Below, piece after piece: positions 27,491-34,293 of a stretch of DNA of 34,360 nt. The DNA comes from Gammaproteobacteria bacterium (GTDB lineage Bacteria > Pseudomonadota > Gammaproteobacteria > UBA6429 > Thiohalophilaceae), in NCBI GenBank assembly GCA_024275915.1, contig JAJRYG010000070.1:1-34360 (forward strand), given 5' to 3'. Within the stretch, counting starts at the first letter, position 1, and every line of letters begins with the position of its first letter. The position numbers and the translations under genes were made by a program. The notes beneath the pieces were generated by a model that was given only the letters and a program-made list of their open reading frames with translations, ran no database searches and was not told the origin of the DNA.

Positions 27491-28618
27491 CTACTCCCAG
27501 CTCAGGGCGCCGCCGGTCTGGTACTCGGTCACACGGGTCTCGAAGAAGTTCTTCTCCTTGCGCAGGTTGGCCTGCTCGTCCAGCCAGCTCAGCCGGCATT
27601 GGGCACCGGCAAAGGGCTCATTCATGCCCAGCTGGCGGGCGCGGCGGTTGGCGATGAAGCGGAACTGCTCCGTGTGATCCTCGACACTGTAACCGAGAAT
27701 GGGATCGCGCAGGATGTAGGCTGCATAGCTGGCCTCGGCGGCCTCGGCCTCCTCCCACATCTGCTGTACGGCCTGGGTATCGAGCACGATGTTTTCTTCC
27801 TGCAAAATGGTCTTGACCGCGCGGATACCAAAGGCGCAATGCAACACCTCGTCGCGCATGATGTACTGCAACTGCTCGGCGGTGCCCTTCATCAGCCCCC
27901 GGCGCTGCAGGGCGAAGATGGGCGAAAAACCGTTGTAGAACCAGCAGCCCTCGAACACCGCGGCAAAGAAGGTATAGGCCATGACGAAGTTCTGCAGCTC
28001 GTCGGGATCACTCAGATCCACATCGGGGCGCAGCACCGACTCGAGGCGCCGGTTGGCCATCTGGATCTTGCCATTGATGGCCGGCACCACCCGGTAGCGA
28101 TTGTAGATCTCGCCCTGATCCAGGCCGATGGTCTCGATGCAGTGCTGGTAGGTCCAGGTATGCAGGGCCTCCTCGTAGACCTGACGAGCCTGGTAGATCT
28201 GCATTTCCGGTGCGGTCATCTTTTCCATCACGGCCAGGCCCAGGTTGCGCATGGCAAGGATGTCCGAGGTGGTCAGATAGGCCAGCACGTTCTCGTAGAC
28301 ATGGCGTTCTTCCAGGGTCAGCTTGTGGTGATAGTCGTGCACATCCTGGGCCATGTTGATGTCCAGCGGTGTCCAGTGGTTCTTGTTGGCGTTGAGAAAG
28401 AACTCCCAGGCCCAGGGATACTTGAACGGTGCCAGCTGGTTGACGTCCGCCACCCCGTTGATGACCCGCTTGTCCTCCGCACACACCGGCGCCAGCGCTT
28501 CCGCCGGCACCACCGTCTCGGACATCTCCACCGCCGCGCCCTCCTCCGGCACGTCCTTCACCACCGGTGCCGCCGGTATCCCATTTGTTCCCGCCAGGGG
28601 ATCGTCCCAGTTCAACAT
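27491..28618 (-). CDS. nrdB: Ribonucleoside-diphosphate reductase class Ia, beta subunit (NrdB)
   Basis: 375 residues. This subunit holds the di-iron/tyrosyl-radical cofactor of aerobic ribonucleotide reductase. Candidate metal ligands fit the class Ia pattern: D119 in TTSDILAM, E150 and H153 in VYEEALHTWTY, and the radical tyrosine Y157 in the same motif; a second set lies around EGCWFYNGF and MRDEVLHCAFG. The C-terminal end, which docks on NrdA, is YQTGGALSWE. The gene is 273 bases downstream of nrdA, separated by an inverted repeat element, and presumably in the same B12-regulated transcript. The stop joins a dispersed element. Confidence 0.97.
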   Translation of the reverse strand: MLNWDDPLAGTNGIPAAPVVKDVPEEGAAVEMSETVVPAEALAPVCAEDKRVINGVADVNQLAPFKYPWAWEFFLNANKNHWTPLDINMAQDVHDYHHKLTLEERHVYENVLAYLTTSDILAMRNLGLAVMEKMTAPEMQIYQARQVYEEALHTWTYQHCIETIGLDQGEIYNRYRVVPAINGKIQMANRRLESVLRPDVDLSDPDELQNFVMAYTFFAAVFEGCWFYNGFSPIFALQRRGLMKGTAEQLQYIMRDEVLHCAFGIRAVKTILQEENIVLDTQAVQQMWEEAEAAEASYAAYILRDPILGYSVEDHTEQFRFIANRRARQLGMNEPFAGAQCRLSWLDEQANLRKEKNFFETRVTEYQTGGALSWE

Positions 28619-28692: not shown

Positions 28693-28837
28693 CGTCATGC
28701 CTGCGAAGGCTGGCATCCAGGCAGGGGTGGTTATTAGAAACAAGGCCATTCGTTGCCACGAAAGTCCTTCCTGCTACCGACAGACACGCGCCATCCGCCC
28801 GAAGCCTCCCTGGATGCCGGCCTGTGCCGGAATGACG
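28693..28837. repeat. Inverted-repeat element between nrdA and nrdB
   Basis: Imperfect 29-base inverted ends: CGTCATGCCTGCGAAGGC ... GGCATCCAGG on the left, and CCTGGATGCCGGCC ... CCGGAATGACG on the right. Similar palindromes that translate as PAKAGIQ or MPACAGMT occur in many proteobacteria, so this is a known type of dispersed repeat. The ends can pair to a long hairpin within the nrdAB transcript. The 85-base middle shows no gene. Confidence 0.8.
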
Positions 28838-28891: not shown

Positions 28892-31711
28892 CTACTGGCA
28901 GGCCTCGCAACCGGGATCGTCGATGGCGCAGGCCCTGGGTGCCGGTTCGCTGGTCTTTTCCATGGCGGTGGCGCCCATGGAGCGCAGGTAGTAGGTGGTC
29001 TTGAGGCCCCGTACCCAGGCCAGCTTGTAGAGGTTGTCCAGGGTCTTGCCCGAGGGCTCGGCCAGGTAGAGATTGAGACTCTGGGCCTGGTCGATCCATT
29101 TCTGCCGCCGCGAGGCGGCTTCGATCAGCCAGCGAGCATCCAGTTCGAAGGCACAGGTATAGAGCCGCTTGAGTTCGTCGGGAATGCGATCGATGGCCTG
29201 CACGCTGCCATCGTAGTACTTGAGATCGTTGACCATCACTTCGTCCCACAGGCCCAGGGCCTTGAGGTCTCGCACCAGGTAGGGGTTGACCACGGTAAAC
29301 TCGCCCGACAGGTTGGATTTGACGAACAGGTTCTGGTAGGTGGGTTCGATGGACTGGCTGACCCCACAGATGTTGGCGATGGTGGCGGTAGGGGCGATGG
29401 CCATGGTATTGGAGTTGCGCATGCCCACGCTCTGCACCCGCTGGCGCAGGCTGTCCCAGTCCAGGGTGGCACTGCGATCCTGCTGTAGGTAGCCGCCGCG
29501 GCCTTGCTCCAGCAGTTCGATGGAGTCGATGGGCAGGATCCCCCGGCTCCACAGGGAGCCGTCGAAGCTGGCATAGCGGCCGCGTTCCTCGGCCAGATCC
29601 GTGGAGGCCTTGATGGTAAACCAGGACACCGCTTCCATGGTCCGGTCGGCAAATTCCACCGCTTCCTCCGAGGCATAGGCGATGCGTTTTCTGTACAGGG
29701 CATCCTGAAAGGCCATGATCCCCAGGCCCACGGGCCGGTGTCTCAGGTTGGAACGGCGCGCCTGGGGCACGCTGTAGTAGTTGTATTCGATGACGTTGTC
29801 CAGCATGCGCATGGCCGTGCTCACCGTGTGTTGCAGCTGCGCCATGTCCAGATCACCGTTGTCGTCCAGATGTTGCACCAGATTGATGGAGCCCAGGTTG
29901 CACACGGCAATCTCGTCGTCGGAAGTGTTGAGAGTGATCTCGGTGCACAGATTGGAGGAATGCACCACGCCGGCATGTTGCTGGGGTGAGCGCAGGTTGC
30001 AAGGATCCTTGAAGGTGATCCAGGGATGGCCAGTCTCGAACACCATGCCGAGGATGCGCCGCCACAGATCCACGGCCTTGAGGGTCTTGTGGATGCGCAG
30101 CTCGCCACGGGCGGCCTTTTCCTCGCAGGCCAGGTACCTGTGCTCGAAGTCCTCACCGAAGCTGTCGTGCAGTTCAGGGGTCTCCTCAGGGGAGAACAGG
30201 GTCCAGTCGCCGTCCTCGGCCACGCGCTTAATGAACAGATCCGGGATCCAGTTGGCCGTGTTCATGTCGTGGGTGCGGCGGCGTTCGTCGCCTGTGTTCT
30301 TGCGCAGTTCCAGGAATTCCTCGATGTCGATGTGCCAGGTCTCCAGATAGGCGCACACCGCCCCCTTGCGCTTGCCGCCCTGGTTGACGGCCACGGCAGT
30401 GTCGTTGGCCACCTTGAGAAAGGGCACCACCCCCTGGGAGCTGCCATTGGTGCCCTTGATGTGGGCACCCAGGCCGCGTACCCGGGTCCAGTCGTTGCCA
30501 AGGCCGCCGGCAAACTTGGACAGCAGGGCGTTGTCGCGGATGGCGCTGTAGATGCCATCCAGGGCATCGGGCACGGTGGTCAGATAGCAGGAGGACAATT
30601 GTGGCCGGCGGGTGCCCGAATTGAACAGGGTGGGTGTGGAGCTCATGAAATCGAAGCTGGACAGCAGATCATAGAACTCGATGGCACGGGCTTCACGGTC
30701 GATCTCGTTGATGGCCAGGCCCATGGCCACCCGCATGAAGAAGGCCTGAGGCAGCTCGAAGCGGGTTCCTTCCTGGCTGTGCAGGAAGTAACGGTCGTAG
30801 AGGGTCTGCAGGCCCAGGTAGGTGAACTGCTGATCCCGTCCGGCATTCAGGGCCGCGCCCAGCCGGGCCAGATCGAAATGGCCCAGCTCGCCGTCCAGCA
30901 GTTCCAGCTCGATACCCCGGCGGATGTAGCTGGCAAAGTACTCACCATAGCCGCCCTGCCAGTCTTCCAGCAGCTCGCCTGGGCGGCACAGGCCGAGAAA
31001 GGCCCAGGCTTCCTGGGCCAGGTCGGAAAGCAGCAGGCGGGCGGCAACGAAACTGTAGTCGGGTTCCTGATCCAGCAGCTGGCGGGTGGTCATCAGCAGC
31101 ACGCTGATCACGTCGTTCTGGGGCATGCCCTCGTAGAGATGGCGCCAGCTCTCCTCGACGATGCGTTCCACGCTCACCGTGTCCAGCCCGGCACAGGCCT
31201 GTTCCACACAGCTCACCAGGGTGCTGCGCTGCAGGGTTACCGTGGTGCCATCGGCACTGCTGACCGGCAGGCTGAAATCGGCCAGATCCGCCTGGCTCTC
31301 CAGCGCCGCCTGCTCGGCGCGCTCGGCGGCGTGGCGTTCACGATACAGCACATAGGCTCGCACCACCTTGTGTTCTCCCGCACGCATCAGGGCCAGCTCA
31401 ACCTGATCCTGGATGTCCTCGATGTGCACGGTGCCCCCCTCGGGGCTGCGCCGGAACAGGCTGTCCTCGATCTGCCGTGCCAGTCTTTCCACGGTTTCGT
31501 GGATACGACTGGAAACAGCGGCGGACTGGCCTTCCACGGCAAGAAAGGCCTTGGTCATGGCCACGGCGATCTTGCTGCGATCGAAGGGTGTGAGCTTGCC
31601 GTTACGGCGGATGACGTTGAACGGGTTGCCGTGTGGGCGGCGAGTAGCGCTGGCGGCCGGGGCGATACTGCTCTCGGCGTTGCTGTCGTTGATGGTCTGG
31701 GTCGGTTCCAT
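28892..31711 (-). CDS. nrdA: Ribonucleoside-diphosphate reductase class Ia, alpha subunit (NrdA)
   Basis: 939 residues, long for the family because of an N-terminal regulatory part: an ATP-cone (about 25-120, VIRRNGKLTPFDRSKIAVAM ... VVRAYVLYRER), followed by a second, degenerate cone-like segment. The catalytic ten-stranded barrel has the cysteines in PQLSSCYL (substrate-site), NLCTEI (thiyl radical) and AVCNLGSIN (the redox partner), the radical-transfer tyrosines in TTYYLRSMG, and a C-terminal CAIDDPGCEACQ that carries electrons from thioredoxin or glutaredoxin. The ATG at 31711 has AAAGGGGA six bases upstream. The layout resembles Pseudomonas aeruginosa NrdA. The gene is controlled by a cobalamin riboswitch. 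Confidence 0.97.
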   Translation of the reverse strand: MEPTQTINDSNAESSIAPAASATRRPHGNPFNVIRRNGKLTPFDRSKIAVAMTKAFLAVEGQSAAVSSRIHETVERLARQIEDSLFRRSPEGGTVHIEDIQDQVELALMRAGEHKVVRAYVLYRERHAAERAEQAALESQADLADFSLPVSSADGTTVTLQRSTLVSCVEQACAGLDTVSVERIVEESWRHLYEGMPQNDVISVLLMTTRQLLDQEPDYSFVAARLLLSDLAQEAWAFLGLCRPGELLEDWQGGYGEYFASYIRRGIELELLDGELGHFDLARLGAALNAGRDQQFTYLGLQTLYDRYFLHSQEGTRFELPQAFFMRVAMGLAINEIDREARAIEFYDLLSSFDFMSSTPTLFNSGTRRPQLSSCYLTTVPDALDGIYSAIRDNALLSKFAGGLGNDWTRVRGLGAHIKGTNGSSQGVVPFLKVANDTAVAVNQGGKRKGAVCAYLETWHIDIEEFLELRKNTGDERRRTHDMNTANWIPDLFIKRVAEDGDWTLFSPEETPELHDSFGEDFEHRYLACEEKAARGELRIHKTLKAVDLWRRILGMVFETGHPWITFKDPCNLRSPQQHAGVVHSSNLCTEITLNTSDDEIAVCNLGSINLVQHLDDNGDLDMAQLQHTVSTAMRMLDNVIEYNYYSVPQARRSNLRHRPVGLGIMAFQDALYRKRIAYASEEAVEFADRTMEAVSWFTIKASTDLAEERGRYASFDGSLWSRGILPIDSIELLEQGRGGYLQQDRSATLDWDSLRQRVQSVGMRNSNTMAIAPTATIANICGVSQSIEPTYQNLFVKSNLSGEFTVVNPYLVRDLKALGLWDEVMVNDLKYYDGSVQAIDRIPDELKRLYTCAFELDARWLIEAASRRQKWIDQAQSLNLYLAEPSGKTLDNLYKLAWVRGLKTTYYLRSMGATAMEKTSEPAPRACAIDDPGCEACQ

Positions 31712-31717
31712 GGCATG

Positions 31718-31760
31718 TCCCCTTTGTCTGTTTATTGTTGTTGGGCAAAACAGACAGGGA
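31718..31760 (-). promoter_or_regulatory. nrdA: Hairpin that can sequester the nrdA ribosome-binding site
   Basis: In the mRNA, TGTCTGTTT (31756... read downward) pairs perfectly with AAACAGACA over nine bases, and the adjacent TCCC can pair with the GGGGA Shine-Dalgarno across a two-base bulge. Folding would block translation of nrdA. A nearby GTTGTT could pair instead with AACAAC in the loop and open it. It is the likely expression platform of the riboswitch upstream. Confidence 0.75.
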
Positions 31761-31858
31761 GAACAACCAGTACGAACGACCCGACAGGGAGGCACGAAGA
31801 CGATTCTCACCTGAGGCCTGTTTCGCGAAGGTCAGGTCGGATCAGCCTGTGGCTGACC

Positions 31859-32044
31859 GTCTCCGGCAGGTCTTCGGACTCAGGGGCGGGACAGTTGCCT
31901 GTCAAACCTTCGGTGATGACTTCCCATCCTCGTGTCGAGGACAGTGTCGGGCGATCACCGTCGTTCCCCAATACCGCTGCGCGTCAGTCCCAGATTCTCA
32001 CCGGGTTCCCATCAAACCCCATATTTGGGGTTTTGACCGGAGAC
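31859..32044 (-). ncRNA. Cobalamin (B12) riboswitch aptamer upstream of nrdAB
   Basis: Read on the minus strand, the closing helix P1 is GTCTCCGG (32044-32037) with CCGGAGAC (31866-31859). Inside, the conserved core is plain: GGGAACCCGGTGAGAATC, then GACTGACGCGCAGCGGTA, then GGGAAGTCATCACCGAAGG, and the B12 box AGTCCGAAGACCTGCC next to P1. A hairpin ATCAGCC / GGCTGAC follows immediately and could serve as the kissing-loop partner. Adenosyl- or other cobalamin binding would be expected to reduce nrdAB expression. Confidence 0.92.
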
Positions 32045-32050
32045 AGACAC

Positions 32051-32079
32051 AAGATAGTGTGCCAGAAGGGATTTGGCAA
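32051..32079 (-). promoter_or_regulatory. nrdA: Probable sigma70 promoter of nrdAB
   Basis: Minus strand: TTGCCA (32079-32074), a 17-base spacer, TATCTT (32056-32051). Transcription would start around 32044, right at the first strand of the riboswitch P1 helix. An ACAC ... GTGT palindrome overlaps the -10 box. Confidence 0.65.
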
Positions 32080-32240: not shown

Positions 32241-32636
32241 ATGCATCGCTTCAAGCTGGCGAACGATGACTTGCAACCGGTGTATTTTGAAGCCGAGAAC
32301 TGCGATCTCAAGCTGCGGCTGAATTCGGCCTATCTCGATTTTGTGCACATGCACGAAGTGGACAAGGTGGTCTTGTATGTACATCACCCGCAACACGAAT
32401 GGTTGCAGGTTTGTGATCACGAGAACCGTTATTTGATCATCGGCAACCCCATGTTGGTGGACAACGGGATGCTGGCCCGGGCTGTTGCCCACACCCTGTG
32501 GCAGGCAAACGGCTTTCCGAGTGAACAGCAAATCCGCGAACGAAAAAGCAAGGCGCTAGAAAAGGAACACCAGCTCGAAGCCGAAAGGCGGCGCAACGCC
32601 TTTCGCGTGATAGAGTCCAATCCGGAAGAACACTGA
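32241..32636 (+). CDS. Uncharacterised protein, 131 residues
   Basis: No family recognised. The first ~95 residues look like a compact alpha/beta domain (FEAENCDLKLRLNSAYLDF, VVLYVHHPQHEWLQV, YLIIGNPMLVDNGMLARAVAH). The C-terminal 35 residues form a highly charged helix (QIRERKSKALEKEHQLEAER) typical of a coiled coil. There is no signal peptide. AGGATC before the ATG is a modest ribosome-binding site. It is divergent from nrdA; the roughly 160 bases between the nrdA promoter and this start must hold its own promoter. After the stop, about 200 bases contain nothing I can name. Confidence 0.75.
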   Translation: MHRFKLANDDLQPVYFEAENCDLKLRLNSAYLDFVHMHEVDKVVLYVHHPQHEWLQVCDHENRYLIIGNPMLVDNGMLARAVAHTLWQANGFPSEQQIRERKSKALEKEHQLEAERRRNAFRVIESNPEEH

Positions 32637-32842
32637 ATCCTCGCATCTCATCTCCATGTGGAGGCGGGACAGTTTTGTCCGAGAGCGCCATTTTTCGAGC
32701 TTGGTTTGAAGAAAAAATCTGATATTTTCGCCACCTGCTTGCAATTGAGGAGCTTGATTAGCCCGCCCCACACATCCTGTTTTTTGCGCTGTTTAGCCAA
32801 ACTGCAGCCAGGCGTCGTTCCGGCTGGTGAGGTCCGAGAGGC

Positions 32843-33280
32843 TCAGGCGCTCAGGTGCTCGTTGAGTACCAGCCAGTACACGCCGAGCTGGCGCACGGCC
32901 TCGATGAACTGGTCGAAGTCCACGGGCTTGCGGATGTAACTGTTGGCCCCCAGGCCGTAGCCATCGATGACGTCACGCTCTTCCAGGGAGGAAGTGAGGA
33001 TCACCACCGGCACCCGTCGGGTCGCCTCGTTGTTGCGCAATTCCTGGAGTACTTCCAGGCCATTGAGCTTGGGCAGCTTGAGATCCAGCAGGATCACCGT
33101 GGGCAGGTGGTGGCTGTTGCGGTCGGCATGGCGACCGCGGGCAAACATGAAATCCAGGGCCTCCTCGCCGTCACGCACCACCTGGATGTCGTTGACGATG
33201 TGGCTCATCTTCAGGGCACGCAGGGTCAGGGCTTCATCATCGGGATTGTCTTCGACCAGCAGGATGAAATCATCGTTCAA
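32843..33280 (-). CDS. Stand-alone response regulator (receiver domain only, Rcp1-like)
   Basis: 145 residues consisting of one CheY-like receiver domain with no output domain. Acidic pocket residues are E10 and D11 (LLVEDNPDDEAL), the phospho-acceptor is D66 in VILLDLKLPKLNG, T96 is in PVVILTSS, and K118 in YIRKPVDF. The insertion-containing start, the length and the NPDDEAL motif are those of the Rcp1 type, which receives phosphate from phytochrome-like or other hybrid histidine kinases encoded elsewhere. No kinase gene is next to it. A dispersed-element-like hairpin lies beyond its 5' side, near metR. Confidence 0.93.
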   Translation of the reverse strand: MNDDFILLVEDNPDDEALTLRALKMSHIVNDIQVVRDGEEALDFMFARGRHADRNSHHLPTVILLDLKLPKLNGLEVLQELRNNEATRRVPVVILTSSLEERDVIDGYGLGANSYIRKPVDFDQFIEAVRQLGVYWLVLNEHLSA

Positions 33281-33393: not shown

Positions 33394-34293
33394 TCAGGCC
33401 CTCGCGGCCATTTTTTCCCGGGCCAGCCGGACGAAGGACTGCATGAAGGGCAAGGCCCTGTCCTGCTCGCGGATGGCCGCGTACAGGGTACCGTGCAGGC
33501 CCGCCTCGCCCAGGGGCCGGGCGCACAGGCGGCCCTGCTGCAGGGGCTCGTCCAGCACCCAGTCGGGCAGCACCGCCACGCCGCGGCCGCTGACCACCAG
33601 TTGCAGCATCATGGCGGTCAGTTCCACGGGGCGCACCGCCGCCGGCTCCACGCCGGCCGGCTGCAGGAATCGGCTGAACACGTCCAGACGGCGCCGCTGC
33701 ACTGGGTAGGTCAGCAGGATCTGCTCTGCCAGATCGTCCGGCAGAACGCGGGGTTTGCCCGCCAGGTGATGGGCACAGGCCAGGGCCAGCAGGGCCTGGT
33801 AGTCGAACAGGGGCTCGAAGACGATGCCGCGTGCATCGACGGGATCGGAGCTGATCACCAGATCCACCTCACCACGGGCCATGGCAGGGATGGGCTCGAA
33901 GCTCATGCCCAGACGGATGTCCACCTCCACCTCGGGCCAGTGCTGGCGAAATTCGTCCAGCAGGGGCAGCAGCCAGTCGAAGCAGGCATGGCATTCGATG
34001 GTGATGTGCAGACGGCCCCGCTGGCCACTGGCCAGGCCGGCCAGTTCCCGTTCCATGCTCTCCAGTTCTGGCAGCAGACGCCGGGCCAGCGTCACCAGGC
34101 GCTGCCCGGCGGCGGTGAGGGTCAATGGCTTGCTGGTGCGCAGGAACAAGGGGGTGTCGAAGTGCTGCTCGATGGCCTTGATCTGGTGGGACAGGGCCGA
34201 CTGGGTGACGTGCAGGCGGCTGGCCGCCCGGGCAAGGCTGCCGGTCTCGGCGATGGACTGCATGCTGCGCAGATGACGAACGTCAAGGAACAT
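33394..34293 (-). CDS. metR: LysR-family regulator MetR
   Basis: 299 residues. A winged helix-turn-helix (about 1-60: VRHLRSMQSIAETGSLARAASRLHVTQSALSHQIKAIE) is followed by a LysR effector domain with the MetR hallmarks ECHACFDWLLPLLDEF and TYPVQRRRLDVFSRFLQPAGV. MetR senses homocysteine and activates metE, metH and other methionine genes while repressing itself. The start is the ATG at 34293. A perfect MetR operator lies 34 bases upstream. The regulated gene is probably metE or another methionine gene, just outside the window. Confidence 0.92.
   Translation of the reverse strand: MFLDVRHLRSMQSIAETGSLARAASRLHVTQSALSHQIKAIEQHFDTPLFLRTSKPLTLTAAGQRLVTLARRLLPELESMERELAGLASGQRGRLHITIECHACFDWLLPLLDEFRQHWPEVEVDIRLGMSFEPIPAMARGEVDLVISSDPVDARGIVFEPLFDYQALLALACAHHLAGKPRVLPDDLAEQILLTYPVQRRRLDVFSRFLQPAGVEPAAVRPVELTAMMLQLVVSGRGVAVLPDWVLDEPLQQGRLCARPLGEAGLHGTLYAAIREQDRALPFMQSFVRLAREKMAARA

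Follow-up and report, generated by a model that had tools for sequence, protein, structure and literature searches.

Overlap of a candidate NrdR operator with the cobalamin riboswitch in the leader of a gammaproteobacterial class Ia nrdAB operon

The DNA analyzed here (the window, 34,360 nucleotides) comes from contig C53 in a gammaproteobacterial draft genome of 2.34 Mb that is 77% complete (G000); G001 denotes the sister species in the same genus, and L numbers denote fetched loci. Profile matches identify nrdA at 28892–31711 on the minus strand, encoding a 939-residue class I ribonucleotide reductase alpha subunit with an ATP-cone (NF005544, 1649 bits; ATP-cone PF03477, PF00317, PF02867). 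Its start is the ATG at 31711, the first in frame after the Shine-Dalgarno sequence AGGGGA (31718–31723). Downstream on the same strand, nrdB (27491–28618; NF005550, 347.6 bits) encodes a 375-residue class Ia beta subunit with the tyrosyl-radical motif; the segment VYEEALHTWTYQH, read from the DNA and containing EALHTWTY, retains the E-x2-H-x3-Y spacing of the class I metal site together with the radical tyrosine. Because NrdB keeps this spacing, the original assignment of the operon as oxygen-dependent class Ia appears reasonable, and a class Ic enzyme, which is without the radical tyrosine, was ruled out by the NrdB sequence. The gap between nrdA and nrdB contains an imperfect inverted repeat (28693–28837; 33-nt arms, 82%) that resembles a small dispersed palindromic element.

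Upstream of nrdA, a metR-like LysR regulator gene (33394–34293, minus strand, profile match) is divergent from metE, which lies just outside the window (L048:400-2676). A response-regulator receiver protein gene (32843–33280, minus strand, profile match) is located between metR and nrdA, and a 131-residue open reading frame without a family match (32241–32636, plus strand, ORF call) lies between metR and the riboswitch. These two genes (32241–33280) occupy this place in G000 but not in the relatives inspected.

Positions 32056–31848 of the minus strand match all 189 positions of the Rfam Cobalamin model RF00174 (92.8 bits, E 5e-22), at three times the gathering cut-off of 31.5 bits; this is the sole Rfam match in the window. 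The original prediction had placed a B12 aptamer at 31859–32044, in front of nrdAB, and named the Rfam model as its check. The model finds the same element, with ends extending slightly beyond those first given and on the minus strand, and nrdA is the next gene downstream on that strand, about 333 nt separating the predicted start site (∼32044) from the ATG at 31711. The window leader is thus a member of RF00174 and, judged by its sequence, would be expected to bind adenosylcobalamin. It is highly improbable that the aptamer is instead a relic, or senses something other than B12, leaving nrdA indifferent to B12: reduced aptamers do occur in the relatives G029, G014, G025, and G027, but the window aptamer fits the full model, and alignment places the nrd aptamers in a conserved sequence group across genera, apart from the btuB/cob group. 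RF01482 (AdoCbl riboswitch) fits the nrdA leaders in G014, G025, and G027 better than RF00174 does, and in the G029 leader the conserved CACTG/GGGAAG arm is gone, while core letters and position are alike throughout. Among related genera, the nrdA aptamers at L052, L053, L057, and L056 range from full RF00174 to short RF01482-like forms, with the G029 form, which is missing the CACTG arm, in between, all at a constant gene position; read from the alignments, the series appears to reflect a peripheral domain lost step by step at a fixed locus.

The 5′ end of the aptamer overlaps a sigma-70-like promoter, TTGCCA-17-TATCTT (32051–32079, minus strand; a pattern match with 0.2–0.3 expected per region). 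An identical promoter sequence precedes the riboswitch in G001 (at nrdD) and in G007 (at nrdA), and TTGCCA-17-TATCTT-GTG is a conserved 5′ flank of the nrd aptamer group. Two palindromes here resemble NrdR boxes: one contains TATCTTGTG, and the other is the aptamer's P2 stem-loop. The consensus of the NrdR box is acaCwAtATaTwGtgt, and scanning with it yielded two candidate boxes on the minus strand: box 1, GCACACTATCTTGTGT (32047–32062, 18 of 22), overlaps the −10 element, and box 2, ACCCCAAATATGGGGT (32016–32031, 17 of 22), coincides with P2. The pair scores 35 of 44 with a 15 bp spacer (p=0.003). Box pairs with 14–17 bp spacers are what NrdR proteins bind (PMC12051234), and an nrdR gene is present in G000 (TIGR00244, 220.8 bits). 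With two boxes at such spacing near a promoter and nrdR in the genome, this arrangement has the features of an NrdR operator, to which NrdR would be expected to bind. The original prediction was silent on an operator inside the aptamer and on the metE-metR neighborhood.

NrdR-type pairs with 15–16 bp spacers were found in all 12 nrd riboswitch leaders of relatives (p 0.003–0.007 each), as compared with 2 of 27 btuB/cob riboswitch leaders in the same consensus scan. In nine leaders (G000, G008, G007, G017, G037, G029, G001, G012, and L139) box 2 is P2, with 5–11 nt between its end and the GGGAA motif in the aptamer core; among 18 btuB/cob aptamers used as controls, none has a box at this position. 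The letters C4, A6, A8, T9, T11, and G13 (C..A.AT.T..G) are identical in all nine copies, and four of these six lie at the apical end of the hairpin, where base pairing in the RNA would not require them. An alternative is that the leader is a plain B12 riboswitch of the Streptomyces type, with the likeness of P2 to an NrdR box reflecting an AT-rich hairpin loop and NrdR acting through box 1 or other sites. P2 is by nature a hairpin and hence palindromic, and box 2 of G000 matches 17 of 22 weighted positions rather than all. Against this, P2 scores 16–20 in the nine nrd leaders and 9–12 in the 18 btuB/cob aptamers (Mann-Whitney p=1.4e-5), box 1 stands 15–16 bp away in all nine leaders, and nrdA promoters that share this layout but have no riboswitch, such as that of G038, have box 2 at the same place. 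We therefore regard a plain riboswitch as improbable.

NrdR boxes at nrdA are themselves to be expected, since a pair was found at 19 of the 20 nrdA genes tested that have no riboswitch, some in the same layout (G038); only the overlap with the aptamer is special. Because riboswitch-less nrdA promoters carry the pair as well, the simplest history is that the aptamer was built around a pre-existing box 2. In the alphaproteobacterial leaders checked outside Bradyrhizobium and Afipia the pair lies upstream of P2, so that a clear overlap of box and aptamer characterizes the present gammaproteobacterial group. Separately, btuB riboswitch leaders of the genus (L006/L098 in G019, L012/L110 in G002) have an NrdR-type pair at the promoter (p=0.003); NrdJ is the only reductase seen in G019 and G002, and NrdR control of B12 uptake is conceivable there.

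Two hairpins follow the aptamer. The first, P13-like (CCTGACC TTCGCGAAACA GGCCTCAGG; 31810–31836, minus strand), is conserved in nrd leaders of the family, as is its loop UCGCG..A; this loop may contact loop L5 through GUGA:UCGC pairing, an interaction seen in other B12 riboswitches. The second, a predicted fold at 31709–31771 on the minus strand, pairs the nrdA Shine-Dalgarno sequence and start codon. The downstream leader as a whole has a folding energy 3.2 standard deviations below shuffled sequences (z −3.2), and Shine-Dalgarno pairing taken alone in the window leader is within chance (p=0.17 versus shuffles); most nrd leaders of the family have the Shine-Dalgarno sequence in a stem, beyond shuffles in only 3 of 11. 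The switch might instead act through transcription termination in the leader, for which Streptomyces nrdABS is the precedent and the G007 leader, with a terminator-like hairpin followed by TTTTT, an example among relatives. Downstream of the aptamer, however, no terminator-like site was found by pattern scan in the window, nor in G001, and a strong predicted hairpin covers the nrdA Shine-Dalgarno sequence, making termination unlikely here. Because the window leader has this hairpin and no terminator-like site, translational control under an NrdR-gated promoter is favored over transcriptional control, with moderate confidence. Given the G007 hairpin and Shine-Dalgarno pairing beyond shuffles in 3 of 11 leaders, the mode of output may differ among relatives.

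A switch of this kind was predicted to be accompanied by nrdJ and a B12 supply elsewhere in the genome, and family searches of G000 recovered both. The class II reductase gene nrdJ is at G000:C33:1766-5239 (TIGR02504, 564 bits over two pieces). For supply, the B12 uptake gene btuB lies behind a second B12 riboswitch, the only other one found in the genome, and cobB fragments occur at contig ends; metH is present as well. No class III NrdD was found by family search of this 77% complete draft. The gene parts for turning class I off with B12 while class II takes over are thus present in G000, and the response itself would be expected from them. An intein of 440 residues, bearing LAGLIDADG-type motifs and an HN/C junction at its C-terminal end, splits the nrdJ gene (L043, minus strand) after TIGR02504 position 108. 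G001 and G014 have an intein at this site as well; another site, at model position ∼282, is occupied in G002, G007, G008, G012, G019, G020, and others, and the G014 nrdJ (a 1543-residue frame) seems to hold both inteins. A single near-perfect NrdR box is located ∼300 bp upstream of nrdJ in G000:C33, far from its start (ACACAACATATTGTGT; CCACAATATATTGTGT in G001).

The pairing of an nrdA riboswitch with nrdJ was also surveyed across genomes. Of 31 known aptamers, 28 escaped a hand-written regular expression, and a covariance model (R1) built from 23 aptamers was used in its place; it detects a riboswitch before nrdA in 18 of 80 named nrdA loci. Calling nrdJ from a match well above class I alpha scores elsewhere in the genome, or from a clear partial match, nrdJ is present in 16 of 17 named genomes with a riboswitch before nrdA and in 12 of 33 without (50 genomes; Fisher p=8e-5, uncorrected for kinship). 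The one exception with a riboswitch is a small Bradyrhizobium draft, and P. aeruginosa and Thioalkalivibrio have nrdJ and no nrdA riboswitch. Within 58 relatives alone the association is borderline (p=0.057), and an order-wide search added almost no sample, the order comprising only 30 genomes at that completeness.

In the family, the order metE (divergent), metR, riboswitch, nrdA recurs in G007, G008, G014, G017, G025, G027, and G029, and G000 has it with the two extra genes. The order in G001 and G012 is metR, riboswitch, nrdD, nrdG, with metE adjoining in G001, so that class III nrdDG occupies the cluster of the sister species in place of nrdAB; no nrdA was found in G001 (97% completeness). 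Of 37 family genomes, 9 have both metE and a B12-independent reductase, 3 have metE only, 1 has the reductase only, and 24 have neither (p=1.6e-5); the lone genome with a reductase and no metE is G012, whose contig stops before metE. The metE/metR/nrd cluster with its NrdR boxes and riboswitch is thus conserved, yet present in only some family genomes. Its patchy presence within one family, together with a reductase that can be of class I or of class III, suggests that B12 independence is acquired and lost as a unit.

One history considered and set aside is that nrdAB and nrdDG were simply exchanged within the genus beneath a single, unchanged aptamer. Because the G001 segment is nearer to that of G012 (MetR 85%, NrdD 88%, aptamer core 89%) than to that of G000 (MetR 63%, aptamer 72%), it appears at least as likely that the entire block was exchanged, or that the binning of G001 is in error. 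Elsewhere, an Acidobacteria draft (L169 6270-6796), Bradyrhizobium, and Afipia (L143, L150) have metE and nrdA divergently arranged, each with its own B12 riboswitch.

Taken together, the aptamer, promoter match, box pair, identity of P2 with box 2, the nrdA, nrdB, nrdJ, and nrdR genes, and conservation across genera, all read from sequence, make it probable that the leader of this class Ia nrdAB operon works as a two-signal gate combining NrdR and the aptamer. In the gate that we infer, transcription would initiate from the TTGCCA-17-TATCTT promoter, whose −10 element lies inside box 1, and NrdR with dATP and ATP would bind boxes 1 and 2, 15 bp apart, blocking initiation when deoxynucleotides suffice. 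With NrdR off, the transcript would fold into the adenosylcobalamin aptamer, in which box 2, copied into RNA, forms the P2 stem-loop. Binding of the ligand would then favor the hairpin that sequesters the Shine-Dalgarno sequence before the nrdA start codon, and translation would stop. The response would run such that the cell relies on class II NrdJ when B12 is present and on NrdAB when it is absent, nrdAB being made only when dATP (through NrdR) and adenosylcobalamin (through the riboswitch) are both low, with the second signal read at translation rather than transcription. With somewhat less assurance, we think that the same DNA serves as NrdR box 2 and, as RNA, as aptamer P2, and that this unit travels with the metE-metR-nrd cluster for B12 independence, whether its reductase is class I or III.

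Control of B12-independent reductases by B12 is established in Streptomyces, P. acnes, delta-proteobacteria, and Chlorobium. The B12 riboswitch of Streptomyces coelicolor nrdABS (Borovok et al., 2006, J Bacteriol 188:2512; cited in PMC5962746 and PMC8620254) likewise precedes class Ia nrdAB, with NrdR boxes at the promoter and NrdJ in the genome. The parallel with Streptomyces drawn in the original prediction therefore holds for the aptamer before nrdAB and the presence of nrdJ, but control there is transcriptional, whereas translational control looks likelier here; as far as the citing literature describes that system, it is outside a metE-metR neighborhood and no overlap of NrdR box and aptamer is mentioned. 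Propionibacterium acnes has Cobalamin riboswitches before both nrdAB and nrdDG, with a riboswitch and NrdR box at the nrdAB promoter and nrdRJ elsewhere, as here; it differs in having a single nrd-box before nrdAB, apparent leader termination, and another phylum and gene context (PMC3848588). B12 elements precede nrdDG in delta-proteobacteria (PMC545781), where NrdJ is present, and nrdD in Chlorobium (PMC8620254), placing a class III reductase under a B12 riboswitch as in G001 and G012; no one-locus exchange with nrdAB and no shared NrdR/aptamer leader is reported for these. Within RF00174 and RF01482, the window subgroup is distinguished by a P2 that matches the NrdR consensus and a 5′ end that overlaps the promoter, and a literature search conducted mostly outside subscription papers found no description of an NrdR box inside a B12 aptamer. 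An aptamer before nrdAB by itself adds one genus to the known B12-controlled reductases; the NrdR boxes overlapping the aptamer, the metE-metR-nrd cluster, and nrdDG in place of nrdAB in the sister species go beyond the known systems. Should the overlap be real, the locus would be a compact example of a repressor operator sharing bases with a riboswitch aptamer, each limiting change in the other; it would illustrate how an NrdR promoter already in place can acquire a riboswitch, and would offer a ready system in which to test joint sensing of dATP and B12.
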